Positions 3,740 to 20,530 of a DNA stretch of 20,772 bases are shown piece after piece. The translations under genes and the position numbers were made by a program. The DNA comes from a virus, in IMG/VR virus record IMGVR_UViG_3300022689_000038, positions 1-20,772 of that record. One strand, given 5' to 3'. Within the stretch, counting starts at the first letter, position 1, and every line of letters begins with the position of its first letter. The notes under the pieces are model-generated. The model was not told the origin of the DNA, did no database searches, and was given only the letters and a program-made list of their open reading frames with translations.

Positions 3740-4935
3740 TCTTCTTCAATTTTTGTTTCAACTATTTCCTCATCAATAATATTAAAAGTGTTAAACTGAA
3801 ACTCAAGCTCACAATGAAAAACGCCCAACACATCATTGATGAACTCCTCTATCGTGTCTCTGTTCTCCATGACCCAGTTCTTCTCAAATAGTTGGTACTG
3901 CATCTTGAGCTCAGCGGCGTTGCCCAACTTCCCCGTAGTCTTTATCCCTATCACCGCAGGGTCAATCTGATGACTTATGGCGATGTTGTCCTTAATCTCT
4001 TGCGACACCTGAGCATAGAGCTTATCGTTCTGAGTCGTCTTGACCGTCTCAATCTCCGGCTGTTGGTCAGCAGGCTTGTAGAACGTCAATATCCTACCCA
4101 TGTTTCTCGCTCCCTTACCTACTGTCTCAAGCATCCTTCTTATCTTCTGCTTCTGCCCTGGTGTCGTCTCAAAGGGAAACTTAAATATCATTGAAGGATT
4201 AATCGAGTTGACTATCCCCTGCTTATACAAGTAGCTTATCTCACCATCTAAGTACGTCCAGTTACCGTTGCTCACATAGTCAGGAAGTGGATAGGTCTTT
4301 AGTCCTGCCGTGTTTGTCCTCAGCTCTAACATCTGATACTTATCCTTGCATCCTAAGTGATGACATGGCACTATCTTGTTAATGCCATACCTTCTCCAGT
4401 CCTCCGATAGGAAGTAGTGTGAGGGCTTATCTTCATATATGCTCACCCTCGTATTTCTGACGTTCTCAGGGTCAATAAGTCGAGCTTTAACAAAGGTCTT
4501 TTTTTCTTCAGAATAAGTAAGTAGCACACACGCCCTCCCATGCTTGATGAAGTCTTGGGATATACCCCTTGTCAACTCCTTTAACTTTAGTCTGATCTCA
4601 AGCTTCTTAATGTCTTTCTTCTTGTCAAGTGTCGCCTCATCATATCCCTTGAACTCGTAGCCCCCACCTACAATAGCGTTTGTCTTAAAGTTTACACAAG
4701 TGGCGTGTATAGGGCTTGACCTATACAAGTTGTTCAGTAGGTTAGGGTAGAGGTTTTCCTCACCGAAGTAGACCATTCCATTGCCCCCCACATAGCTGTC
4801 GTCTACATAGGGCTTAGATAGGTCTCTGTCTCCTACAGGAATGTTGCCGATAGCTCCGAAGTCTTCGTTTACCATTCCATCAGAAGCATCTTTAACCACC
4901 TCCTCTTTCCCAAATTTATAACCTAATATCTTCAT
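3736..4935 (-). CDS. portal protein
   Basis: A 399-aa protein with the layout of Bacteroidota phage portals. A Gly/Asp-rich N-terminus leads to VYFGEENLYPNLLNNLYRSSPIHATCVNFKTNAIVG, where a stretch about choosing a start ring and 'SP.H..C...K.' is characteristic. A central beta region (KARLIDPENVRNTRV, YFLSEDWRRYGI) follows, then a stem-helix segment near TPGQKQKIRRMLETVGKG, and a C-terminal helical crown (AELKMQYQLFEKNWVMENRDTIEEFIN). The portal forms the dodecameric vertex through which terminase pumps DNA and to which the tail attaches. It overlaps the preceding small gene by ATGA and the next connector by 4 bp. Lying downstream of the capsid gene is not the common order (terminase, portal, protease, capsid). 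Confidence 0.85.
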   Translation of the reverse strand: MKILGYKFGKEEVVKDASDGMVNEDFGAIGNIPVGDRDLSKPYVDDSYVGGNGMVYFGEENLYPNLLNNLYRSSPIHATCVNFKTNAIVGGGYEFKGYDEATLDKKKDIKKLEIRLKLKELTRGISQDFIKHGRACVLLTYSEEKKTFVKARLIDPENVRNTRVSIYEDKPSHYFLSEDWRRYGINKIVPCHHLGCKDKYQMLELRTNTAGLKTYPLPDYVSNGNWTYLDGEISYLYKQGIVNSINPSMIFKFPFETTPGQKQKIRRMLETVGKGARNMGRILTFYKPADQQPEIETVKTTQNDKLYAQVSQEIKDNIAISHQIDPAVIGIKTTGKLGNAAELKMQYQLFEKNWVMENRDTIEEFINDVLGVFHCELEFQFNTFNIIDEEIVETKIEEE

Positions 4936-5309
4936 GCGTATATGTTTGTTGTCGTGTAATTGTTCTTAGGCTCAAGGTCAACCACCACTTTTCCCGTCTC
5001 CAAGACCTCGCCCTCTGCTCCATTCTCATCAATAGCACCGCCATTGTATTTGTAAATATCATAAGTATATTGCCCCCTATTTAGATGTATCTGAGCGTTA
5101 GAGGTGTCAACACTACCAGTGTCAACCAACTCAATGTTGTATCTGTCGTAACGCTCCTTAGATGTGCTTGTATTCGTTCCAATGAACCATACAACACTCT
5201 CGCCTTGTACGTTCTTGATGTTGAAAATATAGTCATCACCAAAAGTCTTATTAACCTGAGACACTTGGAAACATTCTACATTTACACTATCTGGTATCAA
5301 AAACATCAT
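4932..5309 (-). CDS. small virion-associated-type protein next to portal
   Basis: I place the start at the tandem ATG codons at 5309/5306, giving about 125 aa beginning M(M)FLIPDSVNVEC. The longer frame to ATG 5348 would begin inside a terminator-like hairpin, and its extra LFTLFLI would be no more than the translated U-tract, so the apparent signal peptide is not credible. The protein is beta-rich: DDYIFNIKNVQGESVVWFIG, an RYDRYNIEL strand, then HLNRGQYTYDIYKYNGG and VLETGKVVVDL. It resembles a family of short proteins frequent beside structural genes in Bacteroidota phages, of unknown function (pattern: NxTxxYxxxF...RYNxFxI...GxYxYxIY...xxETGKxxV). A role in the virion or assembly is inferred from context. 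Confidence 0.72.
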   Translation of the reverse strand: MMFLIPDSVNVECFQVSQVNKTFGDDYIFNIKNVQGESVVWFIGTNTSTSKERYDRYNIELVDTGSVDTSNAQIHLNRGQYTYDIYKYNGGAIDENGAEGEVLETGKVVVDLEPKNNYTTTNIYA

Positions 5310-5322
5310 AACTTCTACAATT

Positions 5323-5350
5323 AAAAAAAGGGTGAACAATCTGCCCACCC
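5323..5350 (-). terminator. rho-independent terminator-like hairpin after the 181-aa gene
   Basis: Read on the minus strand: GGGTG, an 11-nt loop, CACCC, then seven T residues (plus-strand A-run 5323-5329). The 5-bp stem is short but GC-rich. It lies 30 bases past the stop of the 181-aa gene and just before the start of the portal-side gene, so it could limit transcription from the capsid pair into the portal genes. Confidence 0.6.
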
Positions 5351-5380
5351 CCTCCTATTAGATATATGAACAATCTACTT

Positions 5381-5926
5381 TTAAGGCGTTAATAAAGCCG
5401 CAATGATTGAGCTGTCTACCGGGTAAGGTCTCTCAGGTAGTTGATTACTCAACTCTACAACGTAGCCGTTCATGTCAGCCTTCGCTGTACCCGTTGAACT
5501 TTCCCCTCCAGTCAACTGCAAACCTTGCGTTAGGTCAGGTGAATAACCTGCTAACCACCATTGCCCATTGTTGTCTTTAACCAATGCTACAAGGTCTCTC
5601 TGTCCTGCCGCCATTAACATAACGCTGTTTCTTTTTGCCAACTCCTGACGTTTGAATTGTAGCGTTAATGTCTGTGTGTATAGCGTTGATCCTGCTGTCG
5701 TGTCTGCCTCTATCGTGTGATTTAAAACACTTGAATCTCTTGTGATAGCGTAGGACTGGAAGTAAACGGGTGATGAACCGTCTAAGGCTATCGCTGTAAC
5801 TTCCCCAGATGTTATAGTCACGCTATCTATGTCTGCTAAATCATTCAACAGAACCTCGTCTATCCCTCCAATGGAGTTAAGACAGTCCTTAGTGATTGAT
5901 GTTAGCGCGTCGCATAATGATGCCAT
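5381..5926 (-). CDS. putative major tail tube (or other abundant virion) protein
   Basis: A 181-aa protein directly after the major capsid gene. It has an N-terminal GGIDEVLLNDLADIDSV segment, then VTAIALDGSSPVYFQSYAI, a strand-rich centre with TLYTQTLTLQFKRQEL, WWLAGYSPDLTQGLQ, and NGYVVELSNQLPERPYPVDSS. A 'GGI..' opening, repeated beta strands, and a Gly-rich late strand with conserved W are features I associate with tail-tube-type structural proteins in Bacteroidota phages. Terminator-like hairpins flank it on both sides (5945-5964 and 5330-5350), suggesting that this gene and the capsid gene are expressed at their own levels, as fits an abundant structural protein. A capsid decoration protein is the main alternative. 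Confidence 0.5.
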   Translation of the reverse strand: MASLCDALTSITKDCLNSIGGIDEVLLNDLADIDSVTITSGEVTAIALDGSSPVYFQSYAITRDSSVLNHTIEADTTAGSTLYTQTLTLQFKRQELAKRNSVMLMAAGQRDLVALVKDNNGQWWLAGYSPDLTQGLQLTGGESSTGTAKADMNGYVVELSNQLPERPYPVDSSIIAALLTP

Positions 5927-5940
5927 AATTATTAAATGTT

Positions 5941-5964
5941 AAAAGGGGAGTATCTCAACTCCCC
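5941..5964 (-). terminator. hairpin between major capsid gene and 181-aa gene
   Basis: GGGGAG at 5945-5950 pairs with CTCCCC at 5959-5964 around an 8-nt loop. On the minus strand the stem is followed by only four T residues (TTTTAACATT), so it may be a weak terminator, a partial attenuator or a 3'-end stabiliser of capsid mRNA rather than a full stop. Confidence 0.5.
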
Positions 5965-5973
5965 GTTATTTTC

Positions 5974-6984
5974 TTATGTGATGTCAGTTGAGTAATATAC
6001 GATCTCAGTCTCGTTAGAAAGATAGAATCCCATCTTCAAGTTGGCACGAGTTCTAAGCGTAGGCTCTGCAACTGTGTCTGTCAAGTTCACCGCCTTAAGG
6101 TCTGAACCATCACCTAACGCATCGAAAGCGTAGATTAAGTTCTGATGTCTTGTTAACACCATAGTGTTGTCTGACATTCCCTCTTGAACAACAATCTTGA
6201 TTCTACCCAAGTATGTTAATTCTGGGTTCATGGTAGTGTACAGAACGGTGTTGTTCTCTGCAACCGCTTCAAGATAAGCTGATGCTACGTTAGCAGAAAC
6301 ATACATTCTTAAGTCTCCAGTCTTGTGCTTCAACGTATTTGGTAGTCCGTTGTAAACTTTAGAAATCTCTGCGATAACATTAGCCTTAGTGATTGCTGAA
6401 CCAGCAATACCCACAACGTCTCCTGATCCACCGTTATAACCTGCAAGCAACTTCTTCTCGTAACCGTCACACTCTGCTAAGAATGTAGTCGCAGCGTTAA
6501 GTGAAGTATCTCCCTGCCATCTGATTAATGCAGTCTCCTCTTGAATCAAGTTACCAAGCTCTTCCCAATACTGAGATAAGAACATCTGAGGTGCAATCTC
6601 GTTAGAGTTAGCTCCAGGTCTCATCATAGTAGAGAAGAAAGCTTGCTCAGCGTCAAACTGACAAATCTCTCCAAGTGCAGATACTCCACATACATCGATG
6701 TCGATAGCGTCAAGTGATCCTGCTGCCTCCTTAGCGTCATCCCATGAGCAATCAGAAGCGTATAACGCTCTGTCGAATGATTGGTTAGCCAGCTTAGTTT
6801 TGTACTTCACGTTAGGAAGTAGTCTAAAGTTTCCAGTCACGTCATCTGTTAAGTATGCACGTGAGTAAAATTCTTGTGGGTTAGGACAAAGCAAAGCGTT
6901 TGTCTCAACCGTTAGGTCAAATTTAGCTTCGATCTCTTTTGAAGCTTCTTTGATGTCCTTGAAATCAAAGTGTAATTCTCTCAT
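5974..6984 (-). CDS. major capsid protein (HK97-fold)
   Basis: A 336-aa protein starting one base after the protease-scaffold stop codon (TAAAATG), and followed by a strong hairpin. Size and position after a prohead protease fit an HK97-fold shell protein. Visible elements: an N-terminal region with an E/K-rich helix (FKDIKEASKEIEAKFDL), a long spine-helix-like segment (IAPQMFLSQYWEELGNLIQEETALIRWQGD), an AITKANVIAEISKVYNGLPNTL helix, DLRMYVSANVASAYLEAV (P-domain-like strand and helix), YLGRIKIVVQEGMSDNTMVLTRHQNLIYAFD and a late A-domain strand near TEIVYYS. It forms the icosahedral shell. No delta domain is obvious, consistent with the scaffold being provided by the upstream gene. Confidence 0.85.
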   Translation of the reverse strand: MRELHFDFKDIKEASKEIEAKFDLTVETNALLCPNPQEFYSRAYLTDDVTGNFRLLPNVKYKTKLANQSFDRALYASDCSWDDAKEAAGSLDAIDIDVCGVSALGEICQFDAEQAFFSTMMRPGANSNEIAPQMFLSQYWEELGNLIQEETALIRWQGDTSLNAATTFLAECDGYEKKLLAGYNGGSGDVVGIAGSAITKANVIAEISKVYNGLPNTLKHKTGDLRMYVSANVASAYLEAVAENNTVLYTTMNPELTYLGRIKIVVQEGMSDNTMVLTRHQNLIYAFDALGDGSDLKAVNLTDTVAEPTLRTRANLKMGFYLSNETEIVYYSTDIT

Positions 6985-6985
6985 T

Positions 6986-7426
6986 TTATTTCTTTTTTAA
7001 TTTTGCCAAGGCTCTGAACTTAGCCCCGAATGATTGGTTGTCTTCTTTTTGTTCAGCAATTTCTTTCTTTTTGAAGTCCTCTTTCTCTTCTACTACTTCC
7101 TCTTTCTCTTCCTCTCTACCGCCTTCAAGCTTTGCGATCATCTCTACAATAGTCTCAAGCTTCTCGTCAAGCTCTTCCTTAGTGTAATATTTTTTCTCCT
7201 CCTCAGTCTCCTCTACCATTTCCTCTTTCTTCTCTTCTTCTTGAGGCTTCTCTTCTTCCATCTTTTCACGAACTTCATCTCTTCGCTCTTCTTCTTTCTC
7301 TTCGGTTTTTTCTTCCATCAGCTCCACGAGTTTACCGTTCTCATCAGCCTTGTAGAATTTACCGTCAAGCTCAAACTTTTGAACTTCCTGAGTTTCCTCT
7401 TTATTCTCTTTTGTTTCTTCTGCCAT
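6986..7426 (-). other. possible internally started scaffold protein, 146 aa
   Basis: In-frame ATG codons at 7435 (M357) and 7426 (M360, MAEETKENKEE) fall exactly at the border between the protease domain and the Glu/Lys-rich tail. Translation from either would yield a free scaffold of about 146-149 aa. This mirrors the known lambda C/Nu3 arrangement. It is inference from domain layout; no ribosome-binding site decides it. Confidence 0.3.
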
Positions 7427-8503
7427 TGCTTTCATTTTTAAATCTATGTCAAAGAAGCCTTCGACACTATATCCATATTGTTCTTTTTCCACTATTTCTT
7501 CCATGAAGAAGTCGAAGTCTGTAAACTGACTAACTACTATTAGAGAGCCTATTGGTACTTCGTCTTTATCAAATCTATACTTGCTATATGCTTTATCTTC
7601 TTCCGTCTCTATGATCCAGCCCTCTAATAAGTAGGCTGGTGCTTCTCTATCAGTATGGTCAATATTGAATTTTGAATCAACATTTTTGCTTTGGAAATTT
7701 GACCACATTTTATCTATCTGTTCAGTAGAGAATTGAACGGTAAAGACATCACCGCTGTCGGGGTCAATCCTTGGTATCTTTTTATCAGGGATAAGTGCTG
7801 GTGCTGCCACCCTCATCTTGTAAGTGTCGCTCGATAGTTTGGCGTTGACCGTTGTAGCCATCTCGTCAACCGATGAAGCTGACTGTCTGCTTATTGGGTT
7901 AGCCCCCGTCTTTCTGATTTGGTCGTCGTCAAAGTCTGCAAAGTAATATTCTCTTATCCATACGTGTCTGCAACCATAAGAGCCCTTGTAGTCGAATATT
8001 GAGTAGTTCCCAAACTCAGGATTATTTAATTGTTGGCTTATCTCTTCATAGGTGTATATTCTGTTTAGTCCTATGACCTCTCGGCAGAATGATCGAGACG
8101 TGTCTTTTATCCTTTCTTCTCCTGATCCTTTAGGTACATCGTAACGATACCTAACCATGTAGACACCTTTACCATCTGGTGAGAATCTATCTAGGGAACT
8201 ATCAAGCTGCCACTCTGCAAACTTTCCGAGGTCTTGACCTTCCCCCGTTAGGTATTCGTCAACCGTTACCTCTTTCCATTGCTCTTGACGTTCTACTCCA
8301 CATTGCTTAAGGTATTCATAAGCTTCAGCCTTTTGGTCATCATTTAATACCTTTCGCTTGTCGAGTGCCTCCTTATTGAAGAAGAAACCTTTAACCTCTA
8401 TTGCAGGGTCATCGGTCAGGGCAATCATGTTGATGCCATGCTTTTTATTCTTCTTAGCTTTAAGGGGATCAATTTTTATGTCGTACTCTTCTGCTGTCGC
8501 CAT
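6986..8503 (-). CDS. prohead protease (XkdF/S78-like) fused to gp7/MuF-like element and scaffold tail
   Basis: A 505-aa protein in several parts. Residues 20-42 (MIALTDDPAIEVKGFFF) match the start of XkdF-like proteins. Residues 105-190 carry FC140, then GC178-R-H180-VW and YY, a Cys/Cys/His pattern like the C-terminal element of SPP1 gp7/MuF head proteins. Residues 232-352 resemble the Peptidase_S78_2 fold: ALIPDKKIPRID, FNIDHTDRE (H283, candidate catalytic His), LLEGWIIE and YGYSVEGFF (S346, candidate nucleophile). Residues 360-505 are extremely Glu/Lys-rich coiled coil, as in internal scaffolds, ending KFRALAKLKKK. The expected role is to nucleate capsid assembly and mature it by cleavage. 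The gene begins the head operon and lies 83 bases past a terminator. The family call for the protease is solid; the gp7-like part is inference. Confidence 0.8.
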   Translation of the reverse strand: MATAEEYDIKIDPLKAKKNKKHGINMIALTDDPAIEVKGFFFNKEALDKRKVLNDDQKAEAYEYLKQCGVERQEQWKEVTVDEYLTGEGQDLGKFAEWQLDSSLDRFSPDGKGVYMVRYRYDVPKGSGEERIKDTSRSFCREVIGLNRIYTYEEISQQLNNPEFGNYSIFDYKGSYGCRHVWIREYYFADFDDDQIRKTGANPISRQSASSVDEMATTVNAKLSSDTYKMRVAAPALIPDKKIPRIDPDSGDVFTVQFSTEQIDKMWSNFQSKNVDSKFNIDHTDREAPAYLLEGWIIETEEDKAYSKYRFDKDEVPIGSLIVVSQFTDFDFFMEEIVEKEQYGYSVEGFFDIDLKMKAMAEETKENKEETQEVQKFELDGKFYKADENGKLVELMEEKTEEKEEERRDEVREKMEEEKPQEEEKKEEMVEETEEEKKYYTKEELDEKLETIVEMIAKLEGGREEEKEEVVEEKEDFKKKEIAEQKEDNQSFGAKFRALAKLKKK

Positions 8504-8588
8504 CTACTTATATTGTAGAAATGGCTGATTATTTCCAAGAAGGCATACCAACCCTTTTTACTGCATATCTATATTAGAGACAAGCAAT

Positions 8589-8620
8589 AAAAAAAGAGAG
8601 GCAATTTGGACAACCTCTCT
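8589..8620 (-). terminator. rho-independent terminator upstream of head operon
   Basis: On the minus strand AGAGAGG (complement of 8614-8620) and CCTCTCT (complement of 8595-8601) form a 7-bp stem with a 12-nt loop, followed by seven T residues (A-run 8589-8595). It follows the structured-RNA closing stem by only five bases and precedes the protease start at 8503 on the same strand. Confidence 0.82.
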
Positions 8621-8623
8621 CTT

Positions 8624-8742
8624 CAGTGCGAATGCGTTTTCGGGTCTGCACCCTATGGATTTACGCCTTCATAAAAATCATGCAGTCGGCTTCCGAGTTG
8701 ACGGTGGTGGGTCATTGCTCGATATCCAAACTTATTCGCACA
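8624..8742 (-). ncRNA. candidate structured RNA with closing stem and two possible pseudoknots
   Basis: On the minus strand, GTGCGAAT (complement of 8734-8741) closes with ATTCGCAC (complement of 8626-8633), an 8-bp stem spanning about 116 nt. Inside are hairpins TGAC/GTCA (8699-8714), TCGG/CCGA with a 3-nt loop (8686-8696) and GGG/CCC (8642-8653). The loop TGCAG of the last is fully complementary to CTGCA at 8681-8685, a candidate pseudoknot. TGGAT (complement of 8724-8728) can pair with ATCCA (complement of 8656-8660) while GCGT (8663-8666) pairs with ACGC (8634-8637), a second crossing pair. A terminator follows five bases later with correct minus polarity. Either a standalone small RNA of about 230 nt from the 8822 promoter, or a 5' leader controlling the head operon. 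I do not recognise a known riboswitch or ribozyme class. Confidence 0.5.
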
Positions 8743-8821
8743 TTTAAAAAGGTTTTTTATTTTAGGTCTTATTGTCCTTTCGACCTACATCAGTAACCTA
8801 TATGCAACTGACTATATTTAA

Positions 8822-8829
8822 CAAATGTA
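8822..8829 (-). promoter_or_regulatory. candidate -7 element for the structured RNA
   Basis: The minus strand reads TACATTTG, matching the Bacteroidota TAnnTTTG consensus. No clear TTG exists 17-23 bases upstream, only a T-run, so the match is partial. A start near 8815 would give an RNA of about 225 nt ending at the terminator. Confidence 0.4.
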
Positions 8830-8856
8830 ATAATTAAAAATAAATTGAAAAAACTA

Positions 8857-8886
8857 TTGTAGGTTAAATAATTTTATTTATATTTG
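8857..8886 (+). promoter_or_regulatory. Bacteroidota-type promoter for the plus-strand island
   Basis: TTG at 8857-8859, 19 bases, then TATATTTG at 8879-8886. This fits the known Bacteroidota primary sigma consensus (TTG, 17-23 nt, TAnnTTTG). Transcription should begin near 8893, leaving an A-rich leader of about 30 bases before the lipoprotein ATG at 8924. Confidence 0.75.
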
Positions 8887-8923
8887 TATATAACAAAACG
8901 ATAAAACAATTAAATAAATAGAT

Positions 8924-9205
8924 ATGAAAAAGATAATAATAGTATTATTTATTATTCTTGGATCTTGCAATCCATATAAAAGAGAGGAAATAAAAGTTAA
9001 ATTGTTTTATGAAGATGGAACTACTGAAATATTAAAATACAAACAAACGACTTATGCACGTAATAAATATGGGCCCTTTCTCTATAACGGATGTGTCTAT
9101 AAAACAAGAGATAAAAGTAGCACGTCTAGAATTGTTGCATATTTAGATGCCATGAGGTGTGGTGTTGTTAAATTTATTTTACTAGAAAGAAATCAAATAA
9201 ATTAG
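8924..9205 (+). CDS. small putative lipoprotein, 93 aa
   Basis: The N-terminus MKKIIIVLFIILGSCNPYK is a short signal peptide with lipobox LGSC (lipidated Cys at residue 15), a form usual in Bacteroidota. The mature part of about 78 aa is basic, starts with charged KREE (the position of Bacteroidota lipoprotein export signals), and contains two further Cys residues (NGCVYK, MRCGV), which could form a disulfide in the periplasm or at the surface. No known domain is recognised. It is the first gene of a plus-strand cluster directly behind its own host-type promoter, and its stop overlaps the next start (TAGTG). A host-envelope role such as superinfection exclusion is plausible by analogy with phage-encoded lipoproteins, but unproven. 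Confidence 0.75.
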   Translation: MKKIIIVLFIILGSCNPYKREEIKVKLFYEDGTTEILKYKQTTYARNKYGPFLYNGCVYKTRDKSSTSRIVAYLDAMRCGVVKFILLERNQIN

Positions 9206-9363
9206 TGAACTACGCAATACAGATACTTAAGAAAGAAAAAGATCTTTTACAAAGGTGCTTAGAAGATGGTAACTGGGAAGGTTATACAGAAGCTAAGAAG
9301 GACAGAGATAAAAAACTTGAAGATATTAATGAAGCTTTAAGTAAATTAATACAGAAATTATGA
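9205..9363 (+). CDS. small helical protein, 52 aa, GTG start
   Basis: The frame starts at GTG 9205-9207, overlapping the previous TAG by one base (TAGTG), and ends at TGA 9361-9363, overlapping the next ATG by four (ATGA). Overlaps on both sides strongly support it. The peptide (V/M)NYAIQILKKEKDLLQRCLED...EAKKDRDKKLEDINEALSKLIQKL is two amphipathic helices, a pattern shared by many short phage proteins of unknown function that begin 'YAI..L..E...L' and continue 'EA...R..KL..I..AL..L'. It may form a coiled-coil dimer. No ATG in frame explains the same reading, so the GTG start is preferred. Confidence 0.8.
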   Translation: MNYAIQILKKEKDLLQRCLEDGNWEGYTEAKKDRDKKLEDINEALSKLIQKL

Positions 9364-9596
9364 TAGAAGAAATAACAATGACTAAAGGTGATGATAAAGG
9401 AACTATTGAAAGCCTTATTAATTACTTAGAAGGAGCAAAAAAGAAAGGTGCAACACACTATAAAATGAGGTGGAGTCGTGATCCTATGTGGGCTTTCAAG
9501 TGGTTTGAAACTTACAGAATTAAAAGTGAACAAGAAATTAAGCAAGAAAAGATAGACGCTTTAGAAAAAGAACTAAACTCTTTAAAAGCTGAATAA
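9360..9596 (+). CDS. hypothetical protein, 78 aa
   Basis: A charged small protein: an N-terminal helix (DDKGTIESLINYLEGAKKKGATHYKMRW), a short beta/aromatic section (SRDPMWAFKWFETYRIKS), then a C-terminal coiled coil (EIKQEKIDALEKELNSLKAE). The phrase 'GATHYKMRWS.D..W.F.W...YR' looks like a conserved core of small phage proteins, but I cannot name a function. Translationally coupled to the 52-aa gene by ATGA. Confidence 0.78.
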   Translation: MIEEITMTKGDDKGTIESLINYLEGAKKKGATHYKMRWSRDPMWAFKWFETYRIKSEQEIKQEKIDALEKELNSLKAE

Positions 9597-9630
9597 CTCG
9601 CTCCCTTTTTTTTAATTAAAATTAATAGTT

Positions 9631-9873
9631 ATGGATATTACAGAAGAAGAAAGAAAAGAATATAGAGACAAAGTTATTGAAGCCATTGAAAAGTCTTTAA
9701 AAGAAAATAAAAAAAGGATAACCGATTTGGGCGATATAGGAAATGAAATAGGTATAGCTGTTGGTTCTATAACCTGTAAGGATGGGAATGATTTGAATAT
9801 ATGGTCATTTGAAAAGGATGATTTTGAACATGGTTTTAATCATGGATATTCTTTGTTTGATGGTAGCCACTAA
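9631..9873 (+). CDS. hypothetical protein, 80 aa
   Basis: Acidic helical N-terminus (ITEEERKEYRDKVIEAIEKSLKENKKRI), followed by a Gly/Ile-rich strand region (DLGDIGNEIGIAVGSITCKDGNDLNIWSF) and an aromatic/His end (DDFEHGFNHGYSLFDGSH). Not recognised. It starts 34 bases after the previous gene, behind a T-rich spacer, and ends 4 bases before the convergent stop of the 969-aa tail gene, with no terminator between them. Confidence 0.72.
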   Translation: MDITEEERKEYRDKVIEAIEKSLKENKKRITDLGDIGNEIGIAVGSITCKDGNDLNIWSFEKDDFEHGFNHGYSLFDGSH

Positions 9874-9877
9874 TAGC

Positions 9878-12787
9878 TTACTCCTTATAATCAATCTTGA
9901 TAAAGCCTCTATTGATTGTCGAGTCGTCAAAGTTAGTGCTATCAAAGAAACCACCACCCTTTCGATTTATCCTAACCACAGCAGTAGATAGGTTGTACTC
10001 AACATCACTAGAATAGCTATTAGTTGAAGAGGCATCGTACACTTCTGCTAAGGTGTCATTTCTTAATATAACACTCACCGCTATAATGTTCTCATACTCC
10101 GTACTGGTCAAGCCATGATTGATATTTACCGCTCCTACGGTGTCCATGTCCCAACCACCTATGTCCAACACCTTTGTCTTGATGAATGGCTGACCCTCTA
10201 TCCTTATCTTCTCAACGGTCAATGTTTCTACCTTACCATTCCTAACGATCATGTCGTTAAAGACATCAGAGAAAAGACCATCCCCTACTATCAATTTACC
10301 TCCATACTCATCCGTATTTCCATCGCCGACTATTATAGTTTTGGAACGGTTAACGATATTGTCATTTCCATATACTGCTCCACCTTGCGACCCCCTTTGA
10401 AGGGTGTTGTTTTGACCTCTAACAGCCATGCCTCCGTTGTTACCTCCAAAGGTATTCATAGCAGTAGTCTCGCTGTTGTAGTCGTCGGTGTGTGGGTCTG
10501 CTATTATAGGGTTGCCTGGGCTGGGTCTGAATGGTGGCTGCTGTGGTGTTGTGAATGACATTTCCACGCCTTCATCAACTGTGATAAGTTCTACCTTTGT
10601 CAGCTTCGGACTATTTGCATCGTAGTCAATTATCTTATTGACATTGTAGAAAGCATCCTTCACCCATATTTTATCAGAAAGCCTAAAGCTCATTATGTCC
10701 GTAGGAGTCAGGCGGAAGTAAGCCGTTAAGATTTTCCCCTTAGTCAACTGACCGACATACCGCTGATGGTGGAGAGTGTATAGGTTGTTGAATGTTATTG
10801 TATAATTCTCGTAGAAGTAGAATCTGCAAACCCCAAAGTTAATGTCTATTGATGGTTGGTTAGGGTCATCCCAGTGTGCTGCAAATGGGTAATCTGTCTC
10901 AGCGCTGAATCCTTGACCATCATCGTTAAGGAAGTTGAAATTTCCATCTGTCCTCACACCATTGTCAAGAAGTATTCTTATGTTTATCTTCTTGGCCTCG
11001 GTGGTCATTGAGCCAATTGCAGGAACATATAGATTTCTATTGTCCTCTGAAAATAGAATAGGTGTAGGAGAAAATACTATATTTAAATCTTCCTGACCTT
11101 TATTGTATTCATTCTCGAACGTATATCTGTAACGCCCGTATGTTTCCTTGATAGCCTTTTGGTAGCTCTCATTGAATGGATCTCCATCCTCTTTGTACGT
11201 CAGGTTAAGATTCTTTTTCTGCTTATCTTGCACCCACTCCAGTACTGCCTGCTTATCCTTGGCCATCTTGTCAGTCCAGTCCTTTTGCTCCCCGTCATCG
11301 TAGAATTTATCTCTTGTCTTGTAGATGATCTTCTGTGGGTCTGATGGGTCAGGATATGCTACCATCTTATACATATCAAGAACCCCTTTGATGAAGTCTC
11401 TTTGCTTCACTCCCTTCGGAATAAAGTCATTCATATATATTGGCGTTCCAACGTTGTACTCAAACTGAGGCTGAATATTAAATGTTGTTTTATTTGTATT
11501 AATATAAAAGCCTATTGTTGCAGGGTTGCCCGTTGTTAGGTTTCTGAATTTATTGTCTATATTTAAATCGCTTGATTCAGTTATCAATACAAATTCAAAA
11601 TGAGCATCCTCAGAAGCGTAAAATTGAGCGTCGACAATAAACTCAAAAACTCCAGTTGCTATATTCGTTAGTCCAGGCGAATACAATTGTCCCTCAGGTA
11701 TAGTGATTGTCAGTTGATTGCTATCGTAGAATAGACCCCCTTTAACACACCTAATAAATATCTTGAATGTTAATGTATTTCCAGCTCCGCCGTTCCATAG
11801 CTGCACATCATCAGAAGCAAAGAAATTTTCAACCTCTATATCTAAATCTAATAATATTGAACACTTGTATTGACTTGTGAAGTTAGCTGTTAATTCGTTA
11901 GCCACTGCGTCCCATTGAGAAAAAACGTCTTCTGTGATGTTGTTATTTTCAATTCTAGTAGGATCAAATGTAAACCAGTTCTGAGCAGTGCCATTAGGAG
12001 GTGGTGCTGTATATCCTTGGAAACCGAATGACGGCGGATCCAAAGTATACTGGTAAAATGAAGTATCCTCACCATATACTCTTGACCTCCTCTTTGTGTC
12101 CTCCGATGGTTCATATGTATCTGTATAAGGAATGACCAACCTATTGAATAGTATGTCTGCTTCCTCATCCATCTCCCAACGATAGCCAGCCTCGTTGTGT
12201 ATGGCATCCCAATATGTTCTCGCAAAGATGGAAGGTCTGAACTGCTTAACCGTAATGTCAGATCCCTTCTGACCAAATCCCGTCAGGTGATACTTCCATA
12301 GGCTTGTATAGTCATCGCTATACCTTGCCTTGACATTCGCTTTATTTAAGACCTCATATTCGTCAGGATTGAAAAGCTGCAAGTCGTCAAGATCGTTGTT
12401 CTTTATCTCGTCGAATAGGTTAGATATTGATTCCCTGACCACGCCAATATACTCTACCTTGTCATCGGCATTTGGAGTGGTGGGTGCATACTTATTAACC
12501 TTTAATAATTGAAAAAATGCTCCCGAGGGAAACACGTCAACTTCATCCTGCAAGACTACCGCCTCCACCCTTCTATTGACATTAAAGGAGCTGTTGGATA
12601 GGTTAACCTCAAAGGCATTACCTAGCGTCTTGCTACTCTCCTTGTCGCCTACAATAGTTATTTGCTTAGAGTAGGCTGAGTTAGTCTTAGTGATGTCGGT
12701 AACGTCCTGCACGCTATAATTAATCGGGAAGGTTGTGCCCTCCTTAACGTTGATCCATCCATGCTCTTGTAAGTAAATTCTTGTCAT
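9878..12787 (-). CDS. large tail tip/tail-associated protein with beta-roll-like segment
   Basis: At 969 aa, the largest protein here. The N-terminal region (YLQEHGWINVKEGTTFPINYSVQDVTDI, SAYSKQITIVGDKESSKTLGNAFEVNL) has the pattern of large tail proteins of Bacteroidota phages and prophages, where a 'YSK.I.I.G....' strand follows an N-terminal loop. Long beta-rich middle regions contain many aromatic and Asp/Asn residues. From residue 777 (MNTFGGNNGGMAVRGQNN) to about 860 comes a Gly/Asn/Asp-rich stretch with VGDGN and VYGNDN-type repeats like the beta-roll heads of trimeric adhesins, followed by a short KVETLTVEKIRIEG linker and a C-terminal beta domain. Likely a tail-tip or baseplate component contacting the host. 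It overlaps the upstream gene by ATGA. Confidence 0.65.
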   Translation of the reverse strand: MTRIYLQEHGWINVKEGTTFPINYSVQDVTDITKTNSAYSKQITIVGDKESSKTLGNAFEVNLSNSSFNVNRRVEAVVLQDEVDVFPSGAFFQLLKVNKYAPTTPNADDKVEYIGVVRESISNLFDEIKNNDLDDLQLFNPDEYEVLNKANVKARYSDDYTSLWKYHLTGFGQKGSDITVKQFRPSIFARTYWDAIHNEAGYRWEMDEEADILFNRLVIPYTDTYEPSEDTKRRSRVYGEDTSFYQYTLDPPSFGFQGYTAPPPNGTAQNWFTFDPTRIENNNITEDVFSQWDAVANELTANFTSQYKCSILLDLDIEVENFFASDDVQLWNGGAGNTLTFKIFIRCVKGGLFYDSNQLTITIPEGQLYSPGLTNIATGVFEFIVDAQFYASEDAHFEFVLITESSDLNIDNKFRNLTTGNPATIGFYINTNKTTFNIQPQFEYNVGTPIYMNDFIPKGVKQRDFIKGVLDMYKMVAYPDPSDPQKIIYKTRDKFYDDGEQKDWTDKMAKDKQAVLEWVQDKQKKNLNLTYKEDGDPFNESYQKAIKETYGRYRYTFENEYNKGQEDLNIVFSPTPILFSEDNRNLYVPAIGSMTTEAKKINIRILLDNGVRTDGNFNFLNDDGQGFSAETDYPFAAHWDDPNQPSIDINFGVCRFYFYENYTITFNNLYTLHHQRYVGQLTKGKILTAYFRLTPTDIMSFRLSDKIWVKDAFYNVNKIIDYDANSPKLTKVELITVDEGVEMSFTTPQQPPFRPSPGNPIIADPHTDDYNSETTAMNTFGGNNGGMAVRGQNNTLQRGSQGGAVYGNDNIVNRSKTIIVGDGNTDEYGGKLIVGDGLFSDVFNDMIVRNGKVETLTVEKIRIEGQPFIKTKVLDIGGWDMDTVGAVNINHGLTSTEYENIIAVSVILRNDTLAEVYDASSTNSYSSDVEYNLSTAVVRINRKGGGFFDSTNFDDSTINRGFIKIDYKE

Positions 12788-14331
12788 ATGTTAACCTTGT
12801 TTCTATTTGATAGCATCACTTCAATAGTGTACCTCTTTAACTCATACCATCGTTCCTTCTTCACCTCATAGCTCGATGTCGTTATAATGCATCTGTGAAA
12901 CTCACCGTCTATCTTTATGTTGGTGACGGGAGACTCTAATACCTCTGTGAAGTATCTCGAATATTCATCGTTCAAAAAGTCAGTCCTTAGCGTATACATT
13001 CTGACAAATGACTCATCGTAAGTAACCTTCCCACCATCGTTAAGATTGTAGCCATAGTATTCTGGTCCTTCTTGGTATTGAATACCTCCCAAAAATTTAG
13101 TATAGTTAGACTTGTCTATTTTCCTCTTCTCAATATTTCTAAGCGTGAAGTTGAACGGCATAAATGAGCCTAACTTATCCATGAATTGCATCTCAATGTC
13201 TTCATATTCCGTCGTGCACTCTCTGTCTATGTTGAATCTAAACGTTTCAGATACAGCCTCAGCTGCATTGTCTTCCGCGAGTATTTCAAACCACTCTGTT
13301 GTTGGCTTGACTATCGGGAATGTGCCGGTAATAATAGTCCCCCATGTTCCCGTCCTGCTTGGTGATGCGTCAAGCTGTCGTATGGCTTGCGCTAATTGCC
13401 ATGATGATATAACAGCACTATCACCTAGGTCATTAATTATTCGCCAAAAGTATGGCCCTTCTGTGATTGGTGTGTCTTTCTTCTTTAAGGCGTTTATAAG
13501 GATAGTATTGTCCTCCCTAATCGTATAAGGGTTGGGTGCTGTCGTGAGCCACTTAGCCACATTTACATCGTCCATAGCATAGTCGTTCTCATCCCAGTCA
13601 AGCCAATCTTGAGGCGAGAATGTTCCGTTAAATACCACTTGATCTTCTACTGCAAGCTCATTCAAAAACCTTGTCTTTCTATTATCGGCATACTTTGCCG
13701 TTCCCGATGTTGTTCCTCCACCTTGATAGGTTAAGTCTAACACCACCGTCCAATAGAATCCCGATGAACCACCAGCGTTAAACACGTCTAGCACTCTATG
13801 GAAGCCTGATACCGCAGGTAATATAGTTGGGTCAAGTTGGTCTACAAATATCCAATCACCCGGTGAATAAGGTGGTGCAGTTCCTAACGATGTAGTCGTC
13901 AATGCCTGCTTATTTAAGAACGGGTTAGGGGGGTTGTACTGAGGGTTTCCTGCGTTTGGCCAATAGGGTGTTGTGTCGCTTAAAAAGATAAGACCATCGA
14001 AAGCCCACTCGCTTTGATACTCTTCACCTATCTCAATATCAAAACGTTTGTAACTATTGGCAGCATGCTGAGGTGAACTCGTGGATGGTAGAATGTCGAA
14101 TGACACATAGTCTTGAAGCTCCCTATTTATATGTAGGTTGCAATATCCAGTATCAGGATCAGGGCTGATAGTCTTTTCAAACATCAACGCTCCTGCCTCG
14201 TCTTTAATCTGAGCAATGTATCTAAAGCCCGGCTCGTTATTGTTGGTCGAGTCAAAGTAATACACTACGGGGTTGTAAACGGGGTTAATCTCATCCCCAC
14301 CCTTTGGTCTGCCTACTAATGTTACACTCAT
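12784..14331 (-). CDS. distal tail/baseplate-type structural protein
   Basis: 515 aa, beta-rich, with Asp/Pro/Asn-rich loops and no signal peptide. It opens with MSVTLVGRPKGGDEINPVYNPVVYYFDSTN, and contains Pro/Gly-rich surface loops (NAGNPQYNPPNPFLN) and a long C-terminal strand region with KIDKSNYTKFLGG, YTLRTDFLNDEYSRYFTEVLESP and WYELKRYTIEVMLSN. The 'NP..Y.F.S....PGF.Y...' opening and the 'L.D.....L.EL..SP' segment are common in tail proteins next to tail-tip genes of Bacteroidota phages. I infer a distal-tail or baseplate role. ATGA overlaps link it to both neighbours. Confidence 0.6.
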   Translation of the reverse strand: MSVTLVGRPKGGDEINPVYNPVVYYFDSTNNNEPGFRYIAQIKDEAGALMFEKTISPDPDTGYCNLHINRELQDYVSFDILPSTSSPQHAANSYKRFDIEIGEEYQSEWAFDGLIFLSDTTPYWPNAGNPQYNPPNPFLNKQALTTTSLGTAPPYSPGDWIFVDQLDPTILPAVSGFHRVLDVFNAGGSSGFYWTVVLDLTYQGGGTTSGTAKYADNRKTRFLNELAVEDQVVFNGTFSPQDWLDWDENDYAMDDVNVAKWLTTAPNPYTIREDNTILINALKKKDTPITEGPYFWRIINDLGDSAVISSWQLAQAIRQLDASPSRTGTWGTIITGTFPIVKPTTEWFEILAEDNAAEAVSETFRFNIDRECTTEYEDIEMQFMDKLGSFMPFNFTLRNIEKRKIDKSNYTKFLGGIQYQEGPEYYGYNLNDGGKVTYDESFVRMYTLRTDFLNDEYSRYFTEVLESPVTNIKIDGEFHRCIITTSSYEVKKERWYELKRYTIEVMLSNRNKVNI

Positions 14332-15023
14332 ATATTCAATGTTTTTTTCATGTTTACTATGTTGAAGACAAGCACGACATTCATATCAAGAATCTGCTCG
14401 AATTTTGTTATGTCTCCATTGGCTAATTGGTAGAGCATCTGCTCCCACATATACTGCTTCTTCACCTCTTCCTTCTTCTCTTCCTCCTCTACTATCTTAC
14501 GCTCCTCAGGGGTCAGCCCTTTGTAGATGTCCTCCTCTTCGTGATTCTCGTAATACTCTTTTAAGATTTGATCTTTGAATTTGTAGAATGACTCCACGTG
14601 CTTCTTCACCTCAAACCAATCTACGTCCTCAAAGAACTTTCTACGTTTGTGAGTGAAGCCTCCCCAGTCCTCCCATTCGTCTCTACCTATCTCTGATGAC
14701 TTTATCCTTAGCCTATAAAGTAACGCCACTATGCCAACAACGTCCTTATTTATAGCCATGTGATAGCCGTCAATGAACTCCGCAAGGGTCATAGTGTTTA
14801 ATGGCTTAGGGTAGAACGATTCTTCGTAGGCATAGATATAATCGCAAGGGGTAGCGTCTGCCGTCTCCTTAAGTAGTGGCTCAGCCTCTTCCTTTATCTC
14901 CTTCAACTCGTTCAAAGCCATCCCCTCCAATGTGTGAAGGGAATGACCTGAGACAATGGATAGCTTCTTAAAGGTGTCCTTAACTCCTATTAACTGACCA
15001 TATTTCTTAACTGATAAATACAT
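14328..15023 (-). CDS. putative tail assembly chaperone-like protein, 231 aa
   Basis: An acidic, helical soluble protein. The C-terminal segment MWEQMLYQLANGDITKFEQILDMNV resembles the ending of tail-assembly chaperones ('W...L..LA.GDITK...I'). An earlier section LAEFIDGYHMAINKDVVGIVALLYRLR fits the helix bundle of these proteins, and a Glu/Lys-rich linker lies between. Its 5' end overlaps the 172-aa gene by 17 bases in a different (+1) frame, a relationship often seen for paired chaperones, though no classical slippery heptamer is visible. The sequence AAAGGAGGT just before its ATG is an unusually good Shine-Dalgarno match for this genome, if the spacing of 2-4 bases is functional. An alternative is a neck or tail accessory protein. 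Confidence 0.5.
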   Translation of the reverse strand: MYLSVKKYGQLIGVKDTFKKLSIVSGHSLHTLEGMALNELKEIKEEAEPLLKETADATPCDYIYAYEESFYPKPLNTMTLAEFIDGYHMAINKDVVGIVALLYRLRIKSSEIGRDEWEDWGGFTHKRRKFFEDVDWFEVKKHVESFYKFKDQILKEYYENHEEEDIYKGLTPEERKIVEEEEKKEEVKKQYMWEQMLYQLANGDITKFEQILDMNVVLVFNIVNMKKTLNI

Positions 15024-15525
15024 TGACCTCCTTTATAGCCTCCTTAATAACGGGTACTATGTCCGCTGCTGTTAGATGCTCCTCAATCTTTTTCGTTCTG
15101 TCCTTGGTCGTGGAGATGTGCTCGCTCATGTCCTGACCTTTCAGCTTGTACTTGTAAGCTGCCACCTTATTATAGTTTGGCTTCTCGCTGGTCATCTCAT
15201 TTTCGATGAATCGGTAAATCTTCCCGATGAATGGTTGATACTCATATACACCATCTCCGATAGTTATTTCTTTCTTTAGCTCGATGTCGTCAGCCTTGAA
15301 CTTCACTTTGAGAAATATTTTCTTCATCTCCTGTTGATCTGTGATCTGATCGAGTAGTTCCTCCTCCACTCCAAACTCACCAAGAATCTTGTAGAACTTG
15401 TTGGCAAATCCATTAGTCTTATCGCTTAAGATGTTGCTCACTTTAAGCCATTGGTCGATTGACATCTCTGTTAACTCATTGGGAATCTCTCTTATTTCCC
15501 CTCCTTTAAATTCTAATTTTAACAT
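15007..15525 (-). CDS. putative tail assembly chaperone-like protein, 172 aa
   Basis: The N-terminus (MLKLEFKGGEIREIPNELTEMSIDQWLKVSNIL) resembles the start of tail-assembly chaperones, where a short strand is followed by 'IP..LTE.TI.Q...'. A 5-bp A/T-rich leader and the ATG at 15525 fit Bacteroidota starts. The rest is a mixed alpha/beta acidic protein (KIFLKVKFKADDIELKKEITI, YEYQPFIGKIYRFIENEMTS). Chaperones normally coat the tape measure during tail growth; here the gene lies after the tape measure gene rather than before it, which is unusual and lowers certainty. Confidence 0.45.
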   Translation of the reverse strand: MLKLEFKGGEIREIPNELTEMSIDQWLKVSNILSDKTNGFANKFYKILGEFGVEEELLDQITDQQEMKKIFLKVKFKADDIELKKEITIGDGVYEYQPFIGKIYRFIENEMTSEKPNYNKVAAYKYKLKGQDMSEHISTTKDRTKKIEEHLTAADIVPVIKEAIKEVNVFIS

Positions 15526-20462: not shown

Positions 20463-20530
20463 GCTCCAAATATAATGAAAAATATTATAAATGCAATAAG
20501 TATGTCGGGGATGGGGTTACGGAGCTTCAT
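20441..20530 (-). CDS. single-pass membrane peptide, 29 aa
   Basis: The frame starts at ATG 20530-20528, sharing one base with the SSB stop (TGATG), and ends at TAA 20443-20441. The peptide is MKLRNPIPDILIAFIIFFII then FGAWYYWTL: a positively charged start, one transmembrane helix (about residues 8-24) and an aromatic end. It fills the otherwise empty gap between SSB and the 72-aa membrane protein. The TGATG coupling and textbook topology support it; its small size keeps confidence moderate. An upstream in-frame ATG at 20536 is also possible. Confidence 0.6.
   Translation of the reverse strand: MKLRNPIPDILIAFIIFFIIFGAWYYWTL
20467..20496 (-). promoter_or_regulatory. candidate Bacteroidota promoter inside the 29-aa gene
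   Basis: On the minus strand TTG (complement of 20494-20496), 19 bases, then TATATTTG (complement of 20467-20474), the same arrangement as at 8857-8886. The start would be near 20460, at or just past the ATG of the 72-aa gene, so it may mainly serve the regulator and terminase genes downstream. It lies in A/T-rich coding sequence, so chance is possible. Confidence 0.4.

Follow-up and report, generated by a model that had tools for sequence, protein, structure and literature searches.

A compact, strongly folding stretch on the minus strand of a viral contig raises the question of whether it encodes a small RNA in its own right, serves as a leader to the head genes downstream, or folds as it does by chance. 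The window analyzed here is the whole of a 20,772-base virus record from IMG/VR. The minus strand holds nearly all of its genes, in the order terminase, tape measure, two tail-chaperone-like genes, tail genes down to position 9878 and, from position 8503, the head operon (genes are named by position, save for terminase, portal and capsid). Judged by its terminase, which shares 45% identity with its counterpart in Cellulophaga phage phi10:1 and 44% with the one in Flavobacterium phage 11b, the phage appears to be of the Flavobacteriia type. The first gene of the head operon (6986-8503, minus strand), a prohead protease by position, is homologous to the gene preceding the capsid gene in relatives; the capsid protein gene (5974-6984, minus strand) comes second. 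A sequence-only reading had placed an unassigned structured RNA between the tail and head operons. The location is correct, with the qualification that three small plus-strand ORFs from the ORF list (8924-9205, lipoprotein-like, MKKIIIVLFIILGSC...; 9360-9596; and 9631-9873) occupy the same interval, 8924-9873, and that the RNA is divergent from them.

Rereading and folding the sequence bore out the architecture initially described, namely an 8-bp stem enclosing about 116 nt with three hairpins. The structured core covers 116 nt (8626-8741, minus strand). Its closing stem pairs GTGCGAAT (8741-8734) with ATTCGCAC (8633-8626) over 8 bp, at pair probabilities of 0.91-1.0. The enclosed hairpins lie at 8721-8694 (CGAG/CTCG with TGAC/GTCA), at 8690-8665 (CATGA/TTATG within GCC/GGC) and at 8642-8653 (GGGTGCAGACCC, minus strand, GGGT/ACCC with loop TGCAG). 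Folding firmly predicts the closing stem together with two hairpins, CGAG/TGAC and GGGT/ACCC; the middle of the core is uncertain. Five nucleotides past the closing stem begins the 7-bp stem of an intrinsic terminator (8589-8620, minus strand), in which AGAGAGG (8620-8614) pairs with CCTCTCT (8601-8595) across a 12-nt loop, and which ends in a run of seven T (8595-8589); this part of the earlier description likewise stands. The core has a G+C content of 0.49, against 0.13-0.25 in the adjoining intergenic DNA. A G+C-richer island in an A/T-rich genome is a usual sign of structured RNA.

The minimum free energy of the core is -33.1 kcal/mol, a value reached by none of 200 dinucleotide shuffles (z = -2.8). 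When set against the 1034 windows of the same size (116 nt) on both strands of the contig, the core falls in the lowest 1.6% by z and the lowest 0.9% by energy; the significance of the fold is moderate, good without being unique in the contig. Taken together, an 8-bp closing stem and, no more than 12 nt after it, a perfect 7-bp T-rich terminator are found at a single place in the window; 400 dinucleotide shuffles contain no such pair. This test overstates the significance somewhat, since the descriptor was picked after seeing the site. The terminator alone arises 0.12 times per window in shuffles.

The element is intergenic and is preceded by the TAnnTTTG motif that the sequence-only reading had noticed: TACATTTG (8822-8829, minus strand), found 80 nt before the closing stem. 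As a match to the sigma A consensus of Bacteroidetes, TAnnTTTG at -12 to -5 (PMC9723704), this -7 box is a candidate promoter of the RNA. The -33 box is poor, however, with TTTT in place of TTG 19 nt upstream of TACATTTG, which makes it a weaker candidate. Transcription would start near 8815-8818, and the predicted transcript begins with an A/U-rich leader (8742-8818, minus strand) for which folding gives a weak hairpin, TAGGTC..GACCTA, and no significant structure (z = -0.59 for 8742-8930). A strong promoter, TTG-N19-TATATTTG (8857-8886, plus strand), serves the divergent small ORFs; a second Bacteroidetes-type TTG-N19-TATATTTG is found at 20496 on the minus strand. The first of the divergent ORFs (8924-9205), small and near-consensus in its promoter, yielded no homologue in phage records; it may act in superinfection exclusion or be an accessory gene of another kind.

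No known family accounts for the element. A scan with 4227 Rfam families gave nothing at the gathering threshold and, up to an E-value of 10, just matches to miRNAs and McaS that are unrelated and score far below the cut-off, in agreement with the initial statement that the RNA matches no known class. A search for tRNA and tmRNA found none. Self-cleaving ribozymes, as far as Rfam models them (hammerhead, HDV, twister, hatchet, pistol and others, hence known classes alone), were likewise not recognised at E-values up to 10. By inspection, neither the sequence nor the ORF list shows a reverse transcriptase, a CRISPR array or a repeated type III antitoxin there. A hatchet ribozyme, considered on account of GGCGUAA..GUGCAGAC, which we take to resemble this class, was abandoned as Rfam gives it no support.

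Searches for homologues gave a similar picture. BLAST against phage and plasmid records returned low-complexity or short chance matches only. Exact and gapped core patterns run on IMG/VR produced, among the matches listed, none with the structure, and a core pattern scan of GTDB produced chance matches only, again without it. With a single-sequence covariance model, a tool that is weak for distant relatives, the best chance matches in the fetched loci and in 53 whole related records scored 12-13 bits, compared to 148 for the window itself. A 20-base match, GTGCGAATAAGTTTtCATAT, in locus L199 was attributed to chance as it falls inside an opposite-strand ORF (5717-6448). Scans with the capsid protein identified hundreds of related contigs, the best of them only 57% identical, and neither the covariance model nor BLAST nor visual inspection finds the RNA in the nearest phages examined. 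Thus, no homologue came from any search made (Rfam, BLAST, IMG/VR and GTDB patterns, covariance model), and since the RNA was found neither in relatives nor in the pattern scans, the element is an orphan. In the relatives examined, the protease gene mostly has a gap of about 60-140 nt before it and, in most, a divergent gene pair upstream. The RNA and the three plus-strand ORFs stand where relatives have the tail-chaperone-like pair.

On balance, these data argue for a small RNA gene that stands on its own, about 220 nt long and part of an accessory insertion separating the tail operon from the head operon, an explanation that we hold to be somewhat probable. Transcription would begin near 8815 on the minus strand, proceed through the A/U-rich leader into the tightly folded 116-nt core closed by the 8-bp stem, and stop at the intrinsic terminator at about 8590, leaving a stable RNA of about 220 nt. 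Together with the three small divergent genes, the RNA would make up a lineage-specific insertion at a place where related phages have other genes, and the head operon would keep its own start element past the terminator. Several points favor this interpretation: a fold below that of shuffles, the G+C content of the core beside that of the surrounding intergenic DNA, a terminator directly after the closing stem (an arrangement missing from all 400 shuffles), a Bacteroidetes-type promoter box upstream in a Flavobacteriia-type phage, the lack of antiterminator pairing, and a head start element that this phage shares with relatives that have no such RNA. Counted against it are the lack of a homologue in the searches, the 1.6% of contig windows that fold as well by z, the poor -33 box (TTTT), and a 20-codon ORF (8715-8653) through the core, from which a peptide might be made.

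Two of these same points would be expected if there were no functional RNA at all and the fold were a chance product of foreign or decayed coding DNA that survives as a G+C-richer remnant, next to a common type of terminator that ends upstream transcription ahead of the head operon. Besides the frequency of equally good folds in the contig and the want of a homologue, this explanation can claim that, within the core, three reading frames stay open through 38-56 codons; however, the corresponding peptides have no Pfam match even at E 10. It also leaves the terminator with no gene to serve, as the nearest minus-strand gene end, at 9878, is more than 1 kb off, and it does not fit with the stem-plus-terminator combination being missing from shuffles. 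We consider a chance fold unlikely.

The position of the element suggests another scheme, in which the RNA is a cis-acting leader (riboswitch-like, or an attenuator bound by a protein). Transcripts from 8829 would enter the head operon only if the terminator at 8590 were overridden, and capsid production would thereby be tied to a signal. The RNA and its terminator are indeed placed after a promoter-like box and ahead of the head operon, all on one strand, and a complex fold ahead of a terminator is the classic arrangement for such control. Nonetheless, the terminator arms have no alternative pairing to speak of: the best upstream complement to either arm consists of 6 weak pairs (CTTTTT with AGAGAG). 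Furthermore, relatives do without any leader RNA, and a conserved start element of the head operon, CAATATAAG (8507-8515, minus strand), lies downstream of the terminator, 3 nt before the ATG, and agrees in kind and position with the element of relatives without the RNA. This makes a leader a rather doubtful proposition.

The start element was defined by a matrix learnt from 15 relatives, all of them without the RNA. Its consensus is about YAWTATARK, 9 bases long, with its end 1-7 nt (1-4 in most) before the protease ATG. In the window, CAATATAAG was the top-ranking minus-strand site under the first matrix; the rebuilt one placed it fifth when both strands were scored. In these relatives the starts of the capsid genes carry an A-rich pattern in its place, indicating that the element is not a general translation signal. 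It may be the promoter of a nearly leaderless mRNA, or something else; leaderless mRNAs make up only 5.5% in F. psychrophilum (PMC9723704). As CAATATAAG follows the terminator, head expression does not appear to need read-through of the RNA. It is this conserved element past the terminator, in conjunction with the lack of antiterminator pairing, that points to a separate gene. Among the functions that the sequence-only reading had left open, a head-operon attenuator or riboswitch loses ground on both counts, and a discrete terminated RNA emerges as the best reading.

Pseudoknots had been proposed as well. The complementarities exist: loop TGCAG of the hairpin at 8642-8653 is complementary to CTGCA at 8685-8681, so that a kissing interaction or a pseudoknot is possible, and TGGAT/ATCCA is able to cross GCGT/ACGC. 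Their significance did not hold up. As much as 5 nt of upstream complementarity to the loop is present in 10.9% of shuffles and an H-type crossing of 5+4 bp in 22%, and the minimum free energy structure uses the crossing bases in nested form (GTTT/AAAC and GGAT/ATCC), with pair probabilities that reach only 0.4-0.7. It seems improbable that the element represents a new class of compact phage RNA with two pseudoknots and its own task, such as controlling capsid assembly or acting against a host defence; in such a molecule the closing stem would be stacked on GCGU/ACGC, with UGGAU/AUCCA crossing and UGCAG kissing CUGCA.

Still less probable is a short leader peptide or small protein. The 20-codon frame MTHHRQLGSRLHDFYEGVNP is open on the transcript strand from the ATG at 8715 to the stop at 8655-8653, within the structure, but a frame of this length is expected by chance in such DNA, has no family match in Pfam and lacks the residue bias of leader peptides. 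It also sits in strong stems, and start-codon structure lowers initiation in Flavobacterium (PMC6847099). Finally, a DNA element (miniature insertion element, packaging or recombination site) would account for the 8-bp inverted ends flanking a G+C-richer 116-bp body, but it is highly improbable: the window contains a single copy, the ends show no target-site duplication, the terminase genes are far away and the terminator fits an RNA only.

Among known systems, the packaging RNA of phi29-type phages measures about 117-120 nt. The candidate resembles it in size, in having a closing helix with a junction and in a loop that could kiss; it differs in having no Rfam match and in its site between the tail and head operons. 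Identity with this RNA was rejected for want of a family-model match and because the phage has a TerL-type terminase, of the Terminase_6N family, rather than a gp16-type ATPase motor. Phage trans-acting small RNAs (reviewed in PMC12197685) are likewise small, structured and phage-encoded and, as predicted here, intergenic with a promoter and an intrinsic terminator of their own; they are unrelated in sequence, and the present candidate is a predicted RNA whose host would be in the Bacteroidota. Rfp18 and other intergenic small RNAs of the flavobacterium F. psychrophilum (PMC9723704) are similarly independent units with strong predicted structure in a genome with TAnnTTTG promoters, but are bacterial, conserved and partly tested, whereas the candidate is a viral orphan. 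Terminator-type riboswitches and attenuators share with it a structured RNA directly before an intrinsic terminator; unlike them, it shows no antiterminator pairing, fits no known ligand class and is followed by an operon with a start element of its own.

To our knowledge, small RNAs of Bacteroidota phages are little described. The element is a plausible orphan gene for a regulatory or small RNA, ordinary in kind: a good candidate and no discovery. As a free-standing small RNA, it would most likely act in trans, either through base-pairing of its exposed loops (CCACCACC and TGCAG) or through binding of a host or phage protein. If real and trans-acting, it would give a Flavobacteriia-type phage an accessory regulatory RNA within its late region, and the locus offers exact predicted ends as well as a comparison of the start element with relatives devoid of the RNA. 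When the translation starts of the phage itself were searched for targets, no credible one emerged. The one strong complement of the CCACCACC loop, near 5350, was discarded as it is the stem of another terminator. This terminator-like hairpin, GGGTG-(11 nt)-CACCC-T7 (5325-5352, minus strand), lies within the head operon, past ORF 5381-5926 and ahead of the gene that follows; as the listed GTG start at 5348 falls within its stem, ORF 4932-5348 probably starts at an ATG near 5310.

Other peculiarities of the region became apparent. A hairpin, GCCATTTCTAC-AATATAA-GTAGATGGC (8499-8525, minus strand), folds around the ATG with which the head operon begins and resembles a lone Cas12a (type V-A) repeat (TTTCTAC..GTAGAT). 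The window has one copy; about 1.07 Mb of other loci, most of them from related phages, have none. Solitary V-A repeats serve as RNA anti-CRISPRs in other phages (PMC10651486); here the loop, at 7 nt, is long, and the likeness is likely due to chance. A hairpin at the start codon would, in addition, lower translation in Flavobacterium (PMC6847099). The product of that gene (6986-8503) has 505 aa, compared to about 305-345 in most relatives, and its match to most of them starts at residue 187-226, which places an extra ~150 residues in its N-terminal half. Homologues of the divergent gene pair found next to the protease gene in most relatives occur here at 14328-15525 (minus strand), inside the tail operon and on the same strand, a lineage-specific rearrangement.
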